Source of the DNA: Paracoccus jeotgali
Lineage (GTDB): Bacteria; Pseudomonadota; Alphaproteobacteria; Rhodobacterales; Rhodobacteraceae
Direction of reading: 5' to 3'
Assembly (NCBI RefSeq): GCF_002865605.1
Contig: NZ_CP025583.1
Span: 724,501 to 788,500 of the forward strand
DNA length: 64,000 nt
Shown: positions 15,069 through 24,092 of the stretch, piece after piece
Layout: each line of letters starts with the position of its first letter
Position numbering within the stretch: position 1 is the stretch's first letter
The notes under the pieces: generated by a model
What the model was told of the DNA's origin: nothing
The model's input: only the letters and a program-made list of their open reading frames with translations
Database searches by the model: none
Program-made: the position numbers and the translations under genes

Positions 15069-15232
15069 CAGCTCATCCGTGCGAGGATCAGCGCGACCAG
15101 CAGACCCAGCAGCACGAAAGCGAACATGTGCGCCAAGGCCCATTGCGCCCGATCCTTGGTGTCGCCGCCGACGCGCCCGGCGCGATACCAGCCAAGCGCC
15201 AGACCGAACAGGGCAAAGAGAAACACGATCAT
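15068..15232 (-). CDS. Small two-helix membrane protein, 54 residues
   Basis: Begins MIVFLFALFGLALGWYRAGR, then a short charged linker (GGDTKDRAQWA) and a second hydrophobic segment (MFAFVLLGLLVALILARMS) before the stop. Both ends are coupled: its ATG overlaps the MORN-gene stop by four bases (ATGA) and its TGA overlaps the VWA-gene start by one base. That double overlap is the main evidence that this short frame is a real gene. It is predicted to be a helical hairpin in the inner membrane. I do not recognise a named family. It may link the exported MORN protein to the cytoplasmic VWA protein, which is inference only. Confidence 0.8.
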   Translation of the reverse strand: MIVFLFALFGLALGWYRAGRVGGDTKDRAQWALAHMFAFVLLGLLVALILARMS

Positions 15233-16974
15233 GGCGAGCTTTCAGTTTGGGCGTCAGCGCCGGGGGAAACGGGCAGGGTGACGCTGTCGGACGGCATGTC
15301 AGGCACCTGCGCGGCCGCGTCGCGGGCGGCGGCGTCTTCGGCGGCGGCCCGTGCGGCGTCTTGGGTGGCGGCGTCTTCGGAGGCGGTATCTGGCGGGGTG
15401 GCATTATCCGCGGCGCTGTCCGGCCCCGCCTCTTCGCCAGAGGCCGCGTCTGTCGCGCCCTCATCCGCGCCAGCATCGTCCGGCGACGCTGCGGCATCGG
15501 TTCCGACCTCGGCACCCTGGGACCCGCCCGCCGCGCCGTCCGCCTCGGCCGGTGCCGGTCCTTCGGTGCCCACGGGACCGGCGCGGCTCAGCCGGTTCTG
15601 GTCCCATTCGCCCGAGGCGATCTGGCCGGTCACATAGCGCATGACCCCCTGACCCTGGCGCTTTCCGGCCACGAAATTGCCGGTATAGGTATCGCCCGAG
15701 GCATAGCTGGCCACGCCCTCGCCGTCGATCTGGCCGTCCTTCCAGCCGCCCTCATAGGCGAATCCGTCGGCGGTGGTCAGCCGGCCCTGACCGTGGCGCA
15801 GCCCGGCGCGGAACTCGCCCGTATAGACGGTGCCGTCGGGATAAGTGGCCTGGCCGCGCCCCTCGCGCTGGCCCTGCTTCCATTCGCCGGTATAGACGGT
15901 GCCGTCGGGATAGCTCATCCTTCCCTGACCGTCGATGCGGGCGTCGCGGAAATTGCCCTCGTATTCCATGCCGTTGGCATAGACGGCGCGGCCCTGGCCG
16001 TGGATCACGCCCTGCTGCCACTCGCCTTCATAGATGGCACCGTCGGGATAGGCGATGCGGCCCTGCCCGTGGGGCTGGTCGGCCTGCATCGCGCCTTCAT
16101 AGACCGCGCCGTCGGGATAGGTGATCCGGCCCTGACCCTGCATCGCGCCGGCCACCCAGTCGCCGACATAGACATAGCCGTCGGTGCCGGTGAAGGTGCC
16201 CTTGCCGTGGCGGCGGTCGTCGCTGAACTGGCCCTCATAGACATCGCCATTGGCATAGGTGGCCCGGCCCTCGCCCTGCCGCTTGCCGGCCCGGATCTCG
16301 CCGGAATAGAGATCCCCTGATTGCTGCGTCAGATCGCCGCGCCCGGACATCTGCCCGGCGAGCCAGGTGCCGTCATAGACCAGACCGTCGGGCATGGTCA
16401 GCTTGCCGCGCCCGGCGCGCTGCCCGTCCAGCATCTGCCCCTCATAGACCGCGCCGTCGGGATAGGTGACCCGCGCCTGACCCTGCTTGACCCCGTCGAC
16501 CCAGTCGCCTTCATAGCGATAGCCGCCGGGCTGGGTCATCACGCCCTTGCCGTGGTGCAGATAGTTGCGGAAGCCGCCCTGATATTCGGCGCCATTGGCA
16601 TAGACCGCGACGCCCTCGCCGGTGATGACGCCGTCCTTCCAGTCGCCCTCATAGGTGCCGCCATCGGCATAGGTGATCTTGCCCTTGCCGGACGGCTTGC
16701 CCTTTTCGAACCCGCCGACATAGACCGAGCCGTCGGGAAAGCGCGCCTCGCCCTGGCCCCTGATCTCGCCCTCGACCCAGTCGCCGGTGTAGACATAGCC
16801 CGAGGGCAGGGTATAGGTGCCGCGCCCATGCTGAAGCCCGCCGCGAAAGGTGCCTTCATAGACGCCGCCGGCATCGTCGCGGCGCGTCAGCACCTCGCCC
16901 GAGACCGCGCTGCTGTCCTGCGCCATTGCCGGCACTGCCAGCGCCAGCAGGGCGGCTGCGAAAGCTGCCTTCAT
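15229..16974 (-). CDS. Secreted MORN-repeat protein
   Basis: A 581-residue exported protein and first gene of the operon. An N-terminal signal peptide (MKAAFAAALLALAVPAMA) ends near residue 18. About 18-19 consecutive MORN repeats of ~23 residues (Y-x-G-x-W/F...G-x-G...PDG) run from about residue 38 to 455. The last ~125 residues are an acidic, Ala/Asp/Glu-rich low-complexity tail. MORN arrays fold as an elongated single beta-sheet and often bind lipids or proteins. GGAGG lies six bases before the ATG at 16974. Its stop overlaps the next gene by four bases. The repeats are protein repeats; their DNA copies have diverged at wobble positions. Confidence 0.9.
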   Translation of the reverse strand: MKAAFAAALLALAVPAMAQDSSAVSGEVLTRRDDAGGVYEGTFRGGLQHGRGTYTLPSGYVYTGDWVEGEIRGQGEARFPDGSVYVGGFEKGKPSGKGKITYADGGTYEGDWKDGVITGEGVAVYANGAEYQGGFRNYLHHGKGVMTQPGGYRYEGDWVDGVKQGQARVTYPDGAVYEGQMLDGQRAGRGKLTMPDGLVYDGTWLAGQMSGRGDLTQQSGDLYSGEIRAGKRQGEGRATYANGDVYEGQFSDDRRHGKGTFTGTDGYVYVGDWVAGAMQGQGRITYPDGAVYEGAMQADQPHGQGRIAYPDGAIYEGEWQQGVIHGQGRAVYANGMEYEGNFRDARIDGQGRMSYPDGTVYTGEWKQGQREGRGQATYPDGTVYTGEFRAGLRHGQGRLTTADGFAYEGGWKDGQIDGEGVASYASGDTYTGNFVAGKRQGQGVMRYVTGQIASGEWDQNRLSRAGPVGTEGPAPAEADGAAGGSQGAEVGTDAAASPDDAGADEGATDAASGEEAGPDSAADNATPPDTASEDAATQDAARAAAEDAAARDAAAQVPDMPSDSVTLPVSPGADAQTESSP

Positions 16975-17090
16975 CCGTGCCTCCGTTCTTTGGTCTTCCC
17001 TTTAGCCGAGTTGGAACCGCAGCGCAAAGCCTGCCGTTCCCCCCGGTCGCGGCCTGCGCTAGGCTGGCGCCAAAGACCAAAGGGGCAGAC

Positions 17091-18743
17091 ATGACCGACC
17101 GCATCCGCATCACGCTGGCACAGCTGAATCCGACGCTTGGGGATCTGGACGGCAACGCCGCCAAGGCCATGGACGCCTGGACGCAAGCGCGCGAGGCCGG
17201 GGCCGATCTGGTGGTGCTGCCGCGCCTGTTCATCACCGGCCACCCGCTGCTGGATCTGGCCCGCCGCCCCGGTCTGGCCGAGGCCGCACTGGCGCAGATC
17301 GAGGATCTGGCCCGCCAGACCGCCGACGGCCCGGCGCTGGCCATCGGCAGCCCGTGGCGCGACGGCGGGCGGCTGTATGACGCCTGCCTGATCTGTCAGG
17401 GCGGCCGGATCATCGCCCATGTCACCCGCCACGAGGAAGCCGATTGCGACACCTATGATCCCGGCCCGGTCTCCGGCCCCTTCGCGGTCAACGGGGTCCG
17501 CCTCGGCGTCGCCATCGGCCCGGACGGGTTCGCGCCCTCGGTCGCCGAGACGCTGGCCGAAAGCGGGGCCGAGATCCTGATCGTGCCCGATGCCAGCCCC
17601 TATCACCGCGGCGTGCTGGACCGGCGGATGAACCCGATGGTCGCCCGCGTGGTCGAAAACCGGCTGCCGCTTCTGTATCTGAACGCCGTCGGCGGGCAGG
17701 ATGAGCTGGTCTTTGACGGGGCGAGCTTTGTGCTGAACCCCGGTGCCGAGGGCGGCGCCGGGAAAGCCGCCCAGCTTGCGCCCTTTGCCGAGAGTGTGAC
17801 TCAGATCGACCTGCACCGCGCCGCGGATGGCTGGCGGGCCGAGGCTGGCACCATGGCCCAGCAGCCGGGCGAGATCGAACAGGATTACCACGCCATGATG
17901 CTGGGCCTGCGCGACTATCTGGCGAAATCCGGCTTCCGGAAGGTGCTGCTGGGCATGTCCGGCGGCATCGATTCGGCCATCGTGGCCGCCATTGCCGCCG
18001 ATGCGGTGGGGCCGGACAATGTGCGCTGTGTGATGCTGCCCTCGGAATACACCTCGCAGGCGAGCACCGACGACGCGACCGAATGCACGCGGCTGATCGG
18101 CGCGCGGCTGGCCGAGGTCCGCATCGACGGCGCGCGCGAGGCGGTCGGCGCGGGGCTGACGCATCTGATGGCCGGCACCCAGCCCGACGTGACCGAGGAA
18201 AACATCCAGTCCCGCCTGCGCGGCGTCATGCTGATGGCGCTGTCGAACAAGCATGGCGAGATGCTGCTGTCCACCGGCAACAAATCCGAGGCCGCGGTCG
18301 GTTACGCCACCATCTATGGCGACATGGCGGGCGGCTATAACCCGATCCGCGACCTCTACAAGACGCGGGTCTTCGACACCTGCCGCTGGCGGAACGAGAC
18401 CCACCGCGACTGGATGCGGGGCCGTGCGGGCGTCGTCATCCCGCCCCGCATCATCGCCAAGCCGCCAAGCGCCGAGCTGCGCCCCGACCAGAAGGACAGC
18501 GATTCGCTGCCGCCCTATGATATCCTTGACCCGATCCTGCATGGCCTGATCGAGGAAAACCTCTCCCAGCGCGACCTGATCGCCCGCGGCTTCGACGCCG
18601 CCACCGTGCAGCGGGTCGAGACCCTGCTGCTGCAAAGCGAATGGAAGCGGCATCAGGCAGCCCCCGGCCCCCTTATCAGCCCGCGCGCCCTGGGCGAAGG
18701 CCGCCGCTATCCGATGGTCAACCGCTTCCGCGAGCGCGCGTGA
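17091..18743 (+). CDS. nadE: NAD+ synthetase (NadE), glutaminase domain degenerate
   Basis: Amidates nicotinic acid adenine dinucleotide to NAD+. At 550 residues it has the two-domain layout of glutamine-dependent NadE: an N-terminal nitrilase-like domain (1-~270) and a C-terminal synthetase with the PP-loop MSGGIDSAI near residue 290 and the downstream GYATIYGDMAGGYNP. The synthetase part looks intact. In the N-terminal domain all three catalytic positions differ from family: the LPE Glu is Arg45 (LPRLFITG), the K-H Lys is Arg113 (VTRHEEAD) and the ICED Cys is Gly143 (AIGPDGF). It therefore probably uses free ammonia or another ammonia source. The start at 17091 aligns with the family. It overlaps the next gene by four bases. 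Confidence 0.9.
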   Translation: MTDRIRITLAQLNPTLGDLDGNAAKAMDAWTQAREAGADLVVLPRLFITGHPLLDLARRPGLAEAALAQIEDLARQTADGPALAIGSPWRDGGRLYDACLICQGGRIIAHVTRHEEADCDTYDPGPVSGPFAVNGVRLGVAIGPDGFAPSVAETLAESGAEILIVPDASPYHRGVLDRRMNPMVARVVENRLPLLYLNAVGGQDELVFDGASFVLNPGAEGGAGKAAQLAPFAESVTQIDLHRAADGWRAEAGTMAQQPGEIEQDYHAMMLGLRDYLAKSGFRKVLLGMSGGIDSAIVAAIAADAVGPDNVRCVMLPSEYTSQASTDDATECTRLIGARLAEVRIDGAREAVGAGLTHLMAGTQPDVTEENIQSRLRGVMLMALSNKHGEMLLSTGNKSEAAVGYATIYGDMAGGYNPIRDLYKTRVFDTCRWRNETHRDWMRGRAGVVIPPRIIAKPPSAELRPDQKDSDSLPPYDILDPILHGLIEENLSQRDLIARGFDAATVQRVETLLLQSEWKRHQAAPGPLISPRALGEGRRYPMVNRFRERA

Positions 18744-19385: not shown

Positions 19386-19775
19386 ACGCGGATGGCCGGA
19401 TGACCGCGGGGGGTCACACCTTCGAGGAAAGTCCGGACTCCATAAGGTAACGGTGCCGGGTAACGCCCGGCGGGGGAAACCCCAGGGAAAGCGCCACAGA
19501 GAACAGACCGCCTGCCTTCGGGCCGGCAAGGGTGAAACGGTGGGGTAAGAGCCCACCGGGGGGCTGGCAACAGACCCCGCATGGCAAGCCCCACCGGGAG
19601 CAATGCCGAATAGGGATCGCGCGTCGCAAGACAGGGCCACCTTGCCCCAGCAGATCCGGGTTGGCAGCTTGACACCCGCAGCGATGCGGCGTGCAGATGA
19701 ATGGTCATCCATGGGGGATGCGGCCTCGCGGCGGTGTTTCCCGGGACAGAATCCGGCTTACAGGCCGTCCGCGTG
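19386..19775 (+). ncRNA. rnpB: RNase P RNA (class A)
   Basis: Catalytic RNA that matures the 5' ends of tRNAs. The universally conserved blocks are present: GAGGAAAGTCCGGACTCC near 19430-19445, the ACAGA-type segment near 19497-19507, and ACAGAATCCGGCTTACAGGCC at the 3' side near 19746. The ends were set by the P1 helix: ACGCGGATGGCC starting at 19386 pairs with GGCCGTCCGCGT ending at 19774, including one G-U. The length of about 390 bases is right for alphaproteobacteria. Open reading frames across it on both strands are spurious. The promoter at 19351-19379 predicts the same 5' end. Confidence 0.95.
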
Positions 19776-19837
19776 TTTCCGACCAGCCAAGGCAGGCATT
19801 TCGGCGCTGTTTTCGCCCCCATCTGCGGGATTCGCGG

Positions 19838-19933: not shown

Positions 19934-20101
19934 ATGGCGAAGCCGACGACGATCAAGATCCGTCTGAACTCGACGGCCGGGACCGGGCATTTCTACGTCA
20001 CCAAGAAGAACGCCCGCACGATGACCGAAAAATTCTCGGTCAACAAATACGATCCGGTCGTTCGCAAGCATGTCGAATACAAGGAAGGCAAGATCAAGTA
20101 A
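19934..20101 (+). CDS. rpmG: 50S ribosomal protein L33
   Basis: A 55-residue large-subunit protein near the ribosomal E site. It begins [20 protein letters not shown] and contains [11 protein letters not shown] and [18 protein letters not shown]. It is the zinc-free type, with no CxxC pairs. The ATG at 19934 is preceded by GAGCAGGA; the frame is open upstream into rnpB but that part is not coding. It stands alone, with its own promoter and a strong terminator at 20133. Confidence 0.97.
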
Positions 20102-20132: not shown

Positions 20133-20156
20133 AACCGCGCCATGGCGCGGTTTTTT
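20133..20156 (+). terminator. Terminator shared by rpmG and convergent lnt
   Basis: A perfect inverted repeat AACCGCGCC-AT-GGCGCGGTT followed by six T in total on the plus strand. On the minus strand the same stem follows the lnt stop codon within a few bases and is followed by TGTT, so it may work in both directions. Confidence 0.9.
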
Positions 20157-21739
20157 CATGCCCGGGCTCTGGCGCGTCCGGGCCAGAGGGCGCAGGCCAG
20201 CAGCACCAGCAGAGCCGTCAGCAGCACCGGCCACGGCCCCAGTCGCAGCCACAGCGTCCGGGGCAGGGGCGCGGGCAGGGCGGCGTCGATATGGCCGACC
20301 GCGCCCAAGGGCAGCCAGTCCGTCACCCGCCCCAGCGGATCGATCGCGGCGGTGACGCCGGTATTGGCGGCCCGCATCAGCGGCAGCCCCGATTCGATGG
20401 CCCGCAGCCGCGCCTGCGCGAGATGCTGATAAGGGCCGGAGAAGGTGCCGAACCAGGCGTCATTGGTGACCTGCAGCAGCCACTCGGCGCCTTCGGTGGC
20501 GCGGATATGCTGGGGAAAGATGGCCTCGTAACAGATCAGCGGCTGCATCGGCGGCAGGCCCTGCGGGTGCAGTACCTGCGGACCGGGGCCGGGGGTATAG
20601 CCAAAGCCCTGCTGCGCGGCGAAGGCGCCGATCCCCAGCCGCGCCAGCCGGTCGCCCAGCGGGATATACTCGCCAAAGGGCACGAGGTGGAACTTGTCAT
20701 AGGTCTGCACGACCTCGCCGCCCGGCGCGACCTCGATCAGCGCGTTGAAATAGCGGCGATCCTCGGCCCGCTGGATGCCCATCAGGACCGGCGCGCCGGC
20801 GGCCTGACTGGCGACGGCCAGCGCCTCATCGGCGTTGTTCAGCAGAAAGCTGACCGCCGTTTCCGGCCAGATCACCGCGTCGGGGGCAGGGCCGGCGGGC
20901 GGGGCAGCGCTTTCGCTCAGCAGCCGGTCCCAGAAGATCTGCGCCCAGTCCGGGTCCCATTTCAGCGCCTGATCGGCGTCCGGCTGGACCAGCCGCAGCG
21001 TGATGCCGCGCGGCTGGATCGGGGTCGCAAGCCGCGCGGTTCCGGCAAGCCAGACCAGCCCCAGCAGCCCGAGCGGCAGCAGCAGGGCGGCGGCGGTCCG
21101 GCCGCGCCCCGCATCGCTTCGCCAGATCATCGCGGGAAGTGCCGCAAGCGTCAGCATCAGCGCCGACAGCCCGATGGCCCCTACCCATGCGGCGGCTTGC
21201 GCCGGCGGCGTGTCGATCCAGCCATGGCCCAGCATCGCCCAGGGCAGGCCGGTGAAGATCCAGCCGCGCAGCCATTCAAAGATCAGCAGCAGCGCAGCCA
21301 GCGCCCCCACGCGGCGCGGCCCCGGCGGTGTCAGACGCCCCGCCAGCCAGCCGGGGATGGCCCAGAACGCGCCGCCGCCCAAGGCCATGAGGATCAGCGC
21401 AAAGGGCGCCATCCAGCCGTGGATCTCTGGCTGGACCAGAAACGGCTCGGTGATCCAGCTCATGGCGAGGGCGAAAAAGCCGGTTCCGACCAGCCCGGCG
21501 CGCAAACCGGTGGCGCGGGCCGAGAGCGCGGCGGCGCTGCCATGCAGCGCCAGCGCCAGCGCCAGCAGGCTGAGAAGCCACAGCCCCCAGGGCTGCTGGC
21601 CAAGCGCGATGACCGCGCCAAGAAGCAGGAAGCCGACGAGGCGCCAGGCCTTCAGCGGCCGGCGCAGCAGGCCGCCCGGACCGGATCGCGGCGACGGGGC
21701 GCGAGGCGCGTCGTCGCGCTGCGGCCTCGTCACGCGCAT
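20156..21739 (-). CDS. lnt: Apolipoprotein N-acyltransferase
   Basis: Transfers the third acyl chain onto lipoproteins in the inner membrane. From the ATG at 21739 it has 527 residues. About eight hydrophobic segments in the first ~215 residues precede the periplasmic nitrilase domain. The catalytic triad is visible: Glu in VIWPETAVSF, Lys in DKFHLVPFGEYIP and Cys in PLICYEAIFP. A last membrane helix is at the C-terminus. The start was chosen because it lies 10 bases after the helicase stop codon; longer frames would overlap that gene. The last codons run into the shared terminator. Confidence 0.95.
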   Translation of the reverse strand: MRVTRPQRDDAPRAPSPRSGPGGLLRRPLKAWRLVGFLLLGAVIALGQQPWGLWLLSLLALALALHGSAAALSARATGLRAGLVGTGFFALAMSWITEPFLVQPEIHGWMAPFALILMALGGGAFWAIPGWLAGRLTPPGPRRVGALAALLLIFEWLRGWIFTGLPWAMLGHGWIDTPPAQAAAWVGAIGLSALMLTLAALPAMIWRSDAGRGRTAAALLLPLGLLGLVWLAGTARLATPIQPRGITLRLVQPDADQALKWDPDWAQIFWDRLLSESAAPPAGPAPDAVIWPETAVSFLLNNADEALAVASQAAGAPVLMGIQRAEDRRYFNALIEVAPGGEVVQTYDKFHLVPFGEYIPLGDRLARLGIGAFAAQQGFGYTPGPGPQVLHPQGLPPMQPLICYEAIFPQHIRATEGAEWLLQVTNDAWFGTFSGPYQHLAQARLRAIESGLPLMRAANTGVTAAIDPLGRVTDWLPLGAVGHIDAALPAPLPRTLWLRLGPWPVLLTALLVLLACALWPGRARARA

Positions 21740-21749
21740 CCTTGCCCGG

Positions 21750-24092
21750 TCAGTCGCCAGACGGCTCGACCGCGCCCGCATCGGCGGCACCGCCGACCGG
21801 CGCCGCGCCGTCACCCTTGTCGGCAGGGGCGGGTCCGGTATCGGGCGCGCCGCTGTCGGCATCGCTCAGAAGCGGGGCCTTGGGCTTGCGGCTGCGGGTG
21901 CTGCGCGGCTTGGGCGCGGGCTTGGCGGCCGCGTCCTCTGCCGGCGTGTCGGCCTGGGTTGCCTTCTCGCCGCTCTCGCCGGCCTTGTCTGCGGCCGGTT
22001 CGGCCTTGTCGGCAGCTTTGGTCCGGCTGGAACTGCGGCGAGGTTTCGGCTTGGCCTCGGTCTCGGCTTCGGTGGCACCCTCGGCCTTCACCTCACCCTC
22101 GCCCGCCGCTTCGGCCTTGGCCTTGCTGGCGGCGGGTTTGCGGGTGCGTTTCTTGGTCGCGGTCTTGGCGTCCGCCGCCTCATCCGGGGCCAAGGGCGCG
22201 GCGTCGGTCTGGTCAGGCGTGGACTCGGCGGACCGGTCCGCTGCCTCGCTGCCCTCTGCCGGTTCCTGCGTCGCGGGCTTGGCCGAGCGCGATCCGCGCG
22301 AGCGCGAGGAACGCGAGGCGCGGGCGGGCTCTTTCGCCTCGTCGGTGGCCTTCACATCCGCATCCTGCGCCGGCTTGTCCGCCACCTGCGCGGCGTCCGC
22401 CTTCGGCTGCTCGCTCTCTGCATCGCGGCTGCGGGACTTGCCGCCGCTGGCCTCTTCGGCCTCGGCGCGCTGGATGGCGGCGTCGGTCGCCGCGAGCGCC
22501 TCGGCAAAGCTCTGCATCATGAAGGGCGGCACATGGTCGCCCATCCCGGTCACCGACCCGCCATGCGAGCGGCGGTCGTTGCGGTGCCGGTCGTCGCGGC
22601 TGCGGTCGTCGCGGCGGTCGTCCCGACGATCCTCGCGGCGGTCATCACGCCGGTCATCGCGCCTGTCGTCACGGCGGTCATCGCGGCGGCGGTCCTGACG
22701 CTGGTCCTGACCGGTCTCGGCCGGTGCATCGGCCCTGGCCTCGGCCCGCGCCTTTTCCGGCAGCGGTTCGCTGCGGCGGTCGGCGGGCTTGGCCTCGGCC
22801 TGCGCGGCGGGTTTCTCGGCCGGCTGGTCGTGGCCCTCGCCCCGGCTGTCGCCACGGCGCGAGCGGCTGCCGCTGCGGCTTTTGCCGCGCGACTGGTCGT
22901 TGCGCGCGCGCGGCGCAGATCTGGCGTCGTCGGACAGCGAGAAGCCCTCGGGCGCCTCGGCGCGGGGCAGGCTGTTTTTCAGCAGGTTCTCGATCGCGGC
23001 CAGATATTTGTCGTCGGACGGCGTGCCGATGGACAGGGCGGTGCCCTGACGGCCGGCGCGGCCGGTGCGGCCGATGCGGTGGACGTAATCTTCGGCATGG
23101 CTGGGCAGGTCAAAGTTGAACACATGGCTGACCGCCGGGATGTCCAACCCGCGCGCCGCCACATCCGAGGCGACCAGAAAGCGCAGCGAGCCGTCGCGGA
23201 ACGCCTCGAGCGTGCGGGTGCGCTGCGACTGTTCCAGATCGCCATGGATCGGGGCGGCATCGAAACCATGCGCTTTCAGCGACTTGGCGACGATATCGAC
23301 CTCGGTCTTGCGGTTGCAGAAGATGATCGCGTTCTTCAGCGCCTCACCTTCGGACACGATCATCGCGCGCAGCAATTCGCGTTTCTGCTTGGCGGTCTGA
23401 TCCTTGCGGGTGGGCGTGATCTCGACCAGCCTCTGGGTGATGGTCTCACTTGCGGTGGCCTGACGCGCGACCTCGATCCGTTCCGGCGAGTGCAGGAAGG
23501 TGTTGGTGATCCGCTCGATCTCGGGCGCCATGGTGGCGCTGAAGAACAGCGTCTGGCGGTGGAAGGGAGTCAGCTGGAAGATCCGCTCGATATCCGGGAT
23601 GAAGCCCATGTCGAGCATCCGGTCGGCCTCGTCCACGACCATCACCTCGACCCCGGTCAGCAGCAGCTTGCCGCGTTCGAAATGGTCCAGCAGACGGCCC
23701 GGCGTGGCGATCAGCACGTCGACGCCGCGGTCGATCAGCCTGTCCTGCTCGCCAAAGGACACGCCGCCGATCAGCAGCGCCTTGGTCAGCCTGGTGTATT
23801 TGGCATAGGTGTCGAAGTTCTCGGCCACCTGCGCGGCCAGTTCCCGCGTCGGGCACAGCACCAGCGAACGCGGCATCCGCGCCCGGGCACGGCCACGCGA
23901 CAGCCGCGTGATCATCGGCAGCGTAAAGCTGGCCGTCTTGCCGGTGCCGGTCTGGGCGATGCCCAGCACGTCGCGGCCTTCCAAGGCCGGGGGGATCGCG
24001 CCCGCCTGGATCGGCGTGGGCTGGTCATAGCCCGCATCGGCAATCGCCTTGAGAACCTTGGGGTCAAGCTTGAGGTCGGAGAATTTGGTCAT
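21750..24092 (-). CDS. DEAD-box RNA helicase with long disordered C-terminus
   Basis: A 780-residue ATP-dependent RNA helicase (RhlE/CsdA-like), acting on structured RNA in ribosome assembly or decay. The first ~375 residues are the conserved core: Q motif DQPTPIQ, AQTGTGKT, PTRELA, VVDEADRMLDMG, FSATMAP and HRIGRTGRAG. The other ~400 residues are disordered: a basic [18 protein letters not shown] stretch, about eight DDRR repeats (bases 22590-22695), a short helical piece (PPFMMQSFAEALAATDAAI), then a Lys/Ala/Glu-rich tail. The start at 24092 precedes MTKFSDLKLDPKVLKAIADA; upstream frame sequence is not helicase-like. It lies 10 bases upstream of lnt. Confidence 0.93.
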   Translation of the reverse strand: MTKFSDLKLDPKVLKAIADAGYDQPTPIQAGAIPPALEGRDVLGIAQTGTGKTASFTLPMITRLSRGRARARMPRSLVLCPTRELAAQVAENFDTYAKYTRLTKALLIGGVSFGEQDRLIDRGVDVLIATPGRLLDHFERGKLLLTGVEVMVVDEADRMLDMGFIPDIERIFQLTPFHRQTLFFSATMAPEIERITNTFLHSPERIEVARQATASETITQRLVEITPTRKDQTAKQKRELLRAMIVSEGEALKNAIIFCNRKTEVDIVAKSLKAHGFDAAPIHGDLEQSQRTRTLEAFRDGSLRFLVASDVAARGLDIPAVSHVFNFDLPSHAEDYVHRIGRTGRAGRQGTALSIGTPSDDKYLAAIENLLKNSLPRAEAPEGFSLSDDARSAPRARNDQSRGKSRSGSRSRRGDSRGEGHDQPAEKPAAQAEAKPADRRSEPLPEKARAEARADAPAETGQDQRQDRRRDDRRDDRRDDRRDDRREDRRDDRRDDRSRDDRHRNDRRSHGGSVTGMGDHVPPFMMQSFAEALAATDAAIQRAEAEEASGGKSRSRDAESEQPKADAAQVADKPAQDADVKATDEAKEPARASRSSRSRGSRSAKPATQEPAEGSEAADRSAESTPDQTDAAPLAPDEAADAKTATKKRTRKPAASKAKAEAAGEGEVKAEGATEAETEAKPKPRRSSSRTKAADKAEPAADKAGESGEKATQADTPAEDAAAKPAPKPRSTRSRKPKAPLLSDADSGAPDTGPAPADKGDGAAPVGGAADAGAVEPSGD
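22590..22695 (-). repeat. In-gene 12-base repeats encoding DDRR units
   Basis: Within the helicase gene, imperfect 12-base units encode successive Asp-Asp-Arg-Arg blocks (one unit is EDRR). Copies vary at wobble bases, so the repeat is maintained in the protein more than in the DNA. The segment gives an alternating-charge RNA-binding tail. Confidence 0.85.

Follow-up and report, generated by a model that had tools for sequence, protein, structure and literature searches.

The window analyzed here, a stretch of 64,000 nucleotides from Paracoccus jeotgali (contig NZ_CP025583.1, positions 724,501 to 788,500 of the forward strand), carries a nadE gene for a two-domain NAD synthetase whose glutaminase active site has been replaced. 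The gene, its parts and its neighbors are, in window coordinates:

15229..16974, minus strand: protein with MORN-like repeats (named by eye, without an NCBIfam match), divergent neighbor of nadE that marks the ancestral locus
17081..17085, plus strand: AGGGG, ribosome-binding-like, 5 nt upstream of the ATG (read from the sequence)
17091..18743, plus strand: nadE, two-domain NAD synthetase of 550 aa, glutaminase active site lost (NF010588)
17091..17825, plus strand: nitrilase-type glutaminase domain, residues 1-245, catalytically dead as judged by sequence (Pfam CN_hydrolase)
17223..17225, plus strand: Arg45 at the catalytic Glu position, codon CGC (alignment)
17241..17243, plus strand: His51 at a conserved Tyr position (Tyr58 in the M. 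tuberculosis enzyme, by spacing; column alignment)
17415..17468, plus strand: residues 109-126, with Arg113 and a shortened loop from which six residues and the second Glu are missing (alignment)
17427..17429, plus strand: Arg113 at the catalytic Lys position, codon CGC (alignment)
17505..17540, plus strand: residues 139-150, with Gly143 followed by Pro144 and Phe147 at Glu and Trp positions (alignment)
17517..17519, plus strand: Gly143 at the nucleophile Cys position, codon GGC (alignment)
17880..18740, plus strand: synthetase domain, residues 264-550, SGGIDS PP-loop kept (Pfam NAD_synthase, invariant columns)
18690..18701, plus strand: C-terminal segment LGEG, residues 534-537, FWLD in intact relatives (column alignment; coordinates from residue numbers)
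19388..19776, plus strand: RNase P RNA, bacterial class A, 279 bits (Rfam), downstream of nadE
19937..20101, plus strand: end of a short ORF, ribosomal protein L33-like by eye
20156..21862: Lnt, 313.6 bits against the Lnt model

An Rfam search did not find the RNase P RNA in the nadE surroundings examined of four other genomes (G134, G002, G068 and G133).

The nadE open reading frame translates into 550 residues without an internal stop, and its product matches the NCBIfam model NF010588 with 664.5 bits (cut-off 479). A profile search places Pfam CN_hydrolase at residues 6-219 and Pfam NAD_synthase at residues 268-523; this is the type F (NadE2Gln) architecture, a CN-hydrolase domain fused N-terminal to the NAD synthase domain. 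By its similarity to such enzymes, the protein is probably of the dimeric (NadE2) kind. The synthetase motifs are retained, including the SGGxDS PP-loop (PF02540, 227 bits), and 122 of 132 near-invariant C-domain columns are unchanged. A segment is present at the place of the extended C-terminal loop, which contacts the glutaminase domain in type F enzymes, but it reads LGEG in place of FWLD.

The glutaminase domain was compared by phmmer with two solved two-domain NadEs, 4f4h (the best solved match) and 5kha. Arg45, Arg113 and Gly143 align with the catalytic Glu, Lys and Cys of both structures, and the alignment reveals no alternative Glu/Lys/Cys set. The human and M. tuberculosis enzymes have, besides the C-E-K triad, Tyr58 as tunnel constriction 1, a second Glu in the YRE loop, and two residues at the glutamine tunnel, Glu177 and Phe180 (PMC6946656). 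Spacing and motifs, rather than structure, were used to match the lost columns of the window protein to these sites. The window protein has a gap where at least 97% of 170 intact sequences have the YRE-loop Glu, and the loop after the Lys position is six residues shorter, so that the active-site surroundings are not cleanly alignable everywhere. A second protein (P0002, source name Paracoccus jeotgali), 96% identical to the window NadE, has the same Arg, Arg and Gly at the triad, which rules out a sequencing error and indicates that the change is not a frameshift. Thus the preliminary description was right about the full-length two-domain protein, its coordinates, the three replaced residues and the intact PP-loop with its nearby motifs; its further claim of a clean, alignable loss holds as regards the frameshift but fails in the shortened loop. 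As far as residues can tell, glutaminase catalysis has almost certainly been lost.

A NadE of this type is present at E < 1e-60 in 122 of 125 Paracoccus genomes, and the triad is readable in 121 of these (the match in G124 lacks the triad part). The Glu, Lys and Cys positions read E/K/C in 117 genomes and are changed in four, here called losers: the window's own genome (G000) with R/R/G, G133 (locus L201) with E/Q/G, G002 (L204) with G/R/G, and G068 (L205) with A/R/G. The change seen in the window protein is shared by P0002 and absent from most relatives. One locus search across Paracoccus and other Rhodobacterales gave E/K/C in all 80 loci. Among 121 protein records (120 listed from 7778 matches, plus that of the window), 118 read E/K/C, two R/R/G and one E/P/C; the last (P0024) is an alignment slip, its Lys being visible four columns earlier. 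In the wider family we read 59 loci, comprising the 29 best matches other than that of the window (G101, among these, belongs to Paracoccus) and 30 from the weak end: 57 were E/K/C, one was without the Lys region, and one, in another genus (G378), was E/K/G. Decay in the G378 gene extends over its whole length: 63 of 132 synthetase columns are changed and no PP-loop is left. This NadE2-type copy lies beside a longer NadE-like frame of ∼698 aa (L316) in which the E, K and C motifs can be recognized by eye. In this case both halves decay beside another NadE, whereas the losers of Paracoccus have kept an intact synthetase.

Other departures from the common arrangement were also seen. In three genomes (G031, L133; G146, L134; G131, L135 and L136), nadE is split over two frames or contigs, which may reflect assembly errors; the N-terminal pieces read E/K/C. 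Two triad-intact Paracoccus genomes (G073, L318; G136, L319) carry an extra NAD_synthase-family gene (∼125-130 bits), with no recognizable glutaminase part in the stretch read. Ten of 256 family genomes, taken at about one per genus, are without a strong match to this NadE; at a looser cut-off, six of the ten showed matches to the synthetase half within open frames 682-753 aa long, which may be of the octameric type.

To express the extent of the loss, we set the four losers aside and took as near-invariant all columns with at least 97% conservation among 170 triad-intact NadEs. With the window as reference (67 N-domain and 132 C-domain columns), the window protein differs at 18 N-domain and 10 C-domain columns, L201 at 14 and 6, L204 at 20 and 7, and L205 at 22 and 5; the 170 intact proteins have medians of 0 and 0, with extremes of 12 and 21 in outgroup sequences, which puts the window's N-domain change well outside chance variation. 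An intact reference adds two loop columns absent from the window, and of the resulting 69 N-domain columns the window differs at 20. Eleven more distant triad-intact relatives outside the 170, used as a control, differ at 2-21 of these 69 columns, with 21 in L308 and 15 in L311, indicating that the column count alone is not diagnostic and that the decisive evidence is the triad together with which sites were lost. On the intact reference, 14 near-invariant N-domain columns are lost in all four losers: these include the triad Lys and Cys, the Tyr six residues past the Glu position, the Glu of the post-Lys loop, the Glu directly after the Cys, the Trp four residues after it, and the NG of NGSPY. 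The triad Glu itself is retained in L201. The window's 20 lost columns have 14 in common with L201, 19 with L204 and 19 with L205 (hypergeometric p from 3e-9 to 6e-13, with columns treated as exchangeable). Replacements differ between lineages (Arg or Gln, Gly, and others), and some lost sites carry the same new residue.

Why does a domain with a dead active site persist? We compared substitution rates in the two halves of the protein. L204/L205, the only loser pair close enough for this analysis, has dN/dS of 0.20 in the N domain and 0.31 in the C domain, and nine intact pairs treated in the same way give 0.07-0.32 and 0.05-0.22, respectively. By this measure the dead domain is under purifying selection in this one close pair. 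These values, together with the identity between the window protein and P0002 (95.5% in the N domain, 97.0% in the C domain), indicate that the fold is being preserved, although under constraint that is somewhat reduced. The pairs L201/L204 (0.32 N, 0.46 C) and window/L005 (0.38 N, 0.23 C) point to weaker, apparently relaxed, constraint on some loser branches.

Relaxation of this kind, seen in the N-domain value for window/L005 and in the long N-domain branches of the losers (0.54 for the window), is what would be expected if the N domain were unimportant and persisted only because its removal needs a deletion. Such slow decay is nevertheless unlikely: the N-domain dN/dS of L204/L205 is not above that of the C domain, the four losers all retain 44 near-invariant N-domain columns, none of the four genes has acquired a stop or frameshift, and the redundant copy in G378 shows how far a dispensable NadE can drift, even in its synthetase half. 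We favor the view that the domain is retained for a structural or regulatory role. In the octameric human enzyme the glutaminase domains form the assembly core (PMC6946656), and dimeric NadE2 enzymes are described as regulated by PII and by NAD+ feedback (PMC7196632); by analogy, either function could explain why the N domain is kept. In the preliminary description, the loss of the glutaminase site is borne out by sequence; the suggestion of a relic calls for refinement, given the constraint in L204/L205 and the occurrence of more than one loss in the genus.

The loss also raises the question of where the amide nitrogen comes from. A profile search of the genome finds one NadE. The two other PF02540 matches span model positions 7-48 and 19-84 only, too short for a second, intact NadE, and short matches of that kind occur in most related genomes as well. 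Six CN-hydrolases are encoded: NadE, the Lnt of the window, a second Lnt-like gene identified by eye and broken by an internal stop (L216; G000:C1:852480-853205, minus strand), and three soluble proteins resembling nitrilases or deaminated-glutathione amidases. Against the NadE model (cut-off 479), the three soluble proteins reach 31-47 bits, and they also fall below the nitrilase and deaminated-glutathione-amidase cut-offs; among the other CN-hydrolases of the genome, these three and the window's Lnt judged by model scores and L216 by eye, none is a separate NadE-like glutaminase of types C or R.

The preliminary description had proposed that a glutaminase might act in trans, and a nitrilase-superfamily protein or an unrelated amidase could in principle feed ammonia to NadE: some NAD synthetases have a clustered or remote glutaminase subunit (PMC3376133), and the three soluble CN-hydrolases have, by eye, likely Glu/Lys/Cys residues of their own. 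By family score, however, none of them resembles the NadE glutaminase domain, and the place where a subunit would dock is still occupied by the N domain of NadE itself. With the other two CN-hydrolases being Lnt-like, the proposal is left without a good candidate in this family, and we regard supply in trans as very unlikely. Since there is no sign of a dedicated glutaminase subunit among the CN-hydrolases, the amide donor of this NadE would, on the gene content, probably be free ammonia. A Cys mutant of M. tuberculosis NadE keeps its ammonia-dependent activity. Characterized fused NAD synthetases accept ammonia as well as glutamine (PMC3376133), and the human two-domain enzyme has a kcat of 20 per s and a kcat/Km of 0.49 with ammonia, as against 3.7 and 0.45 with glutamine (PMC6946656).

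We also surveyed genes of nitrogen metabolism across the genus. The ammonium transporter AmtB (PF00909) is absent from three of 125 genomes, namely G000 and G068, which have lost the triad, and G129, in which it is intact; the other losers, G002 and G133, retain it. AmtB is thus missing from two of four losers versus one of 117 intact genomes (Fisher p = 0.0025, for a post hoc comparison of one of three families that ignores kinship). Loss of AmtB and loss of the glutamine site would both fit an ammonium-rich habitat, an association that we treat as a lead only. The species name jeotgali points to fermented seafood. PII genes occur in 123 of 125 genomes, including all four losers, and do not separate the losers from the rest. 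ELFV glutamate dehydrogenase (E < 1e-80) is found in four of four losers and in 16 of the 25 intact genomes looked at, which is uninformative.

We next consider how often the site was lost. A single ancient loss, from which all four genes would have received a shared degenerate N domain by descent or gene transfer, is suggested by the tree of the whole N domain, which groups the four losers with a support of 0.996 and in which their union is also the best tree of the approximately unbiased (AU) analysis; the lost sites, too, are almost identical and in part share the same new residue. Across 20 taxa, however, the AU test rejects joining the four on two of three partitions, the synthetase domain (p = 0.0008) and the N domain minus its active-site stretches (p = 0.0026), indicating that the grouping stems from those stretches. 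A GyrA tree of 29 Paracoccus genomes and one outgroup scatters the losers over three places: G002+G068 group with four triad-intact genomes (support 99), G133 groups with two (support 74), and G000 lies elsewhere, among deeper nodes that are weakly supported. L201 joins L204/L205 in one C-domain tree (0.857), an arrangement found neither in the GyrA tree nor in the AU analysis. The nearest N domain of each loser is that of an intact relative, except for the sister pair L204/L205. The divergent MORN-like neighbor adjoins nadE in all nine loci examined, three of them from losers, indicating that nadE is at its ancestral place; horizontal transfer of nadE is accordingly not supported. A single origin is thus highly unlikely, and the trees suggest that the same functional site was lost within Paracoccus at least twice and probably three times. 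It is scarcely credible that the N domain has been rebuilt around a new nucleophile or another amide substrate and still supplies ammonia: the kept fold is the sole point in favor, the replacements vary by lineage and form no new conserved set, and none of the four retains the second Glu.

Taken together, we consider it likely that this NAD synthetase depends on ammonia and retains its dead glutaminase domain for structural, and possibly regulatory, reasons, and that such loss has recurred in Paracoccus. A vertically inherited enzyme of the NadE2 kind would have lost its glutaminase active site; its C-terminal synthetase domain would adenylate NaAD and amidate it with free cytosolic ammonia; its N-terminal nitrilase fold would stay as a non-catalytic structural part and possibly a regulatory surface; and the same change would have arisen at least twice, probably three times, in the genus. 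A more elaborate reading is that Paracoccus lineages living on plentiful ammonium repeatedly dropped the glutamine site and repurposed the fold as a pseudo-glutaminase that serves assembly or a regulatory input such as PII docking or NAD+ feedback, uncoupling NAD output from glutamine while leaving it under nitrogen control; this is tentative, and we would not bet on it.

What has been lost, more than once and at nearly identical residues, is the activity and not the domain. As natural replicates, the loser enzymes allow one to ask which functions other than catalysis a glutaminase domain serves, and whether free ammonia suffices as the amide donor in vivo. They also illustrate that a family or domain score, here well above its cut-off, does not reveal the capacity for glutamine use.

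The available text of a family survey describes NAD synthetase glutaminases as fused, clustered, remote or absent and does not mention a fused but dead form (PMC3376133), and we found no such case in the open-access literature, outside which most subscription papers lie. One published comparison is AdgA of Rhodobacter capsulatus, an NAD synthetase from a related member of the order, compared here by published descriptions alone: a 1994 paper title (in the reference list of PMC3376133) calls it 'NH3-dependent', and a 2023 paper lists it as glutamine-dependent (PMC10037102). If AdgA also had a dead domain, the present finding would be less new. With the NadE2Gln enzymes of type F (4f4h, Azospirillum NadE2), the window protein shares the two-domain architecture, an orthologous gene and intact synthetase motifs, but it is without the catalytic Glu, Lys and Cys and the second Glu, and would not be expected to hydrolyze glutamine. 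It resembles the single-domain NadE-NH3 enzymes of type N in that free ammonia is probably its only donor; in contrast to them, it has a glutaminase domain, albeit a dead one. Carbamoyl phosphate synthetase I likewise keeps an inactive glutaminase-like domain in which the Cys is replaced. That enzyme uses ammonia only and is thought to derive from a glutamine-dependent enzyme (PMC6022934), the same course that we propose for the window NadE. Although carbamoyl phosphate synthetase I is vertebrate and mitochondrial, with a glutaminase class and a reaction unrelated to those of NadE, we propose by analogy that the window NadE works in a similar way.
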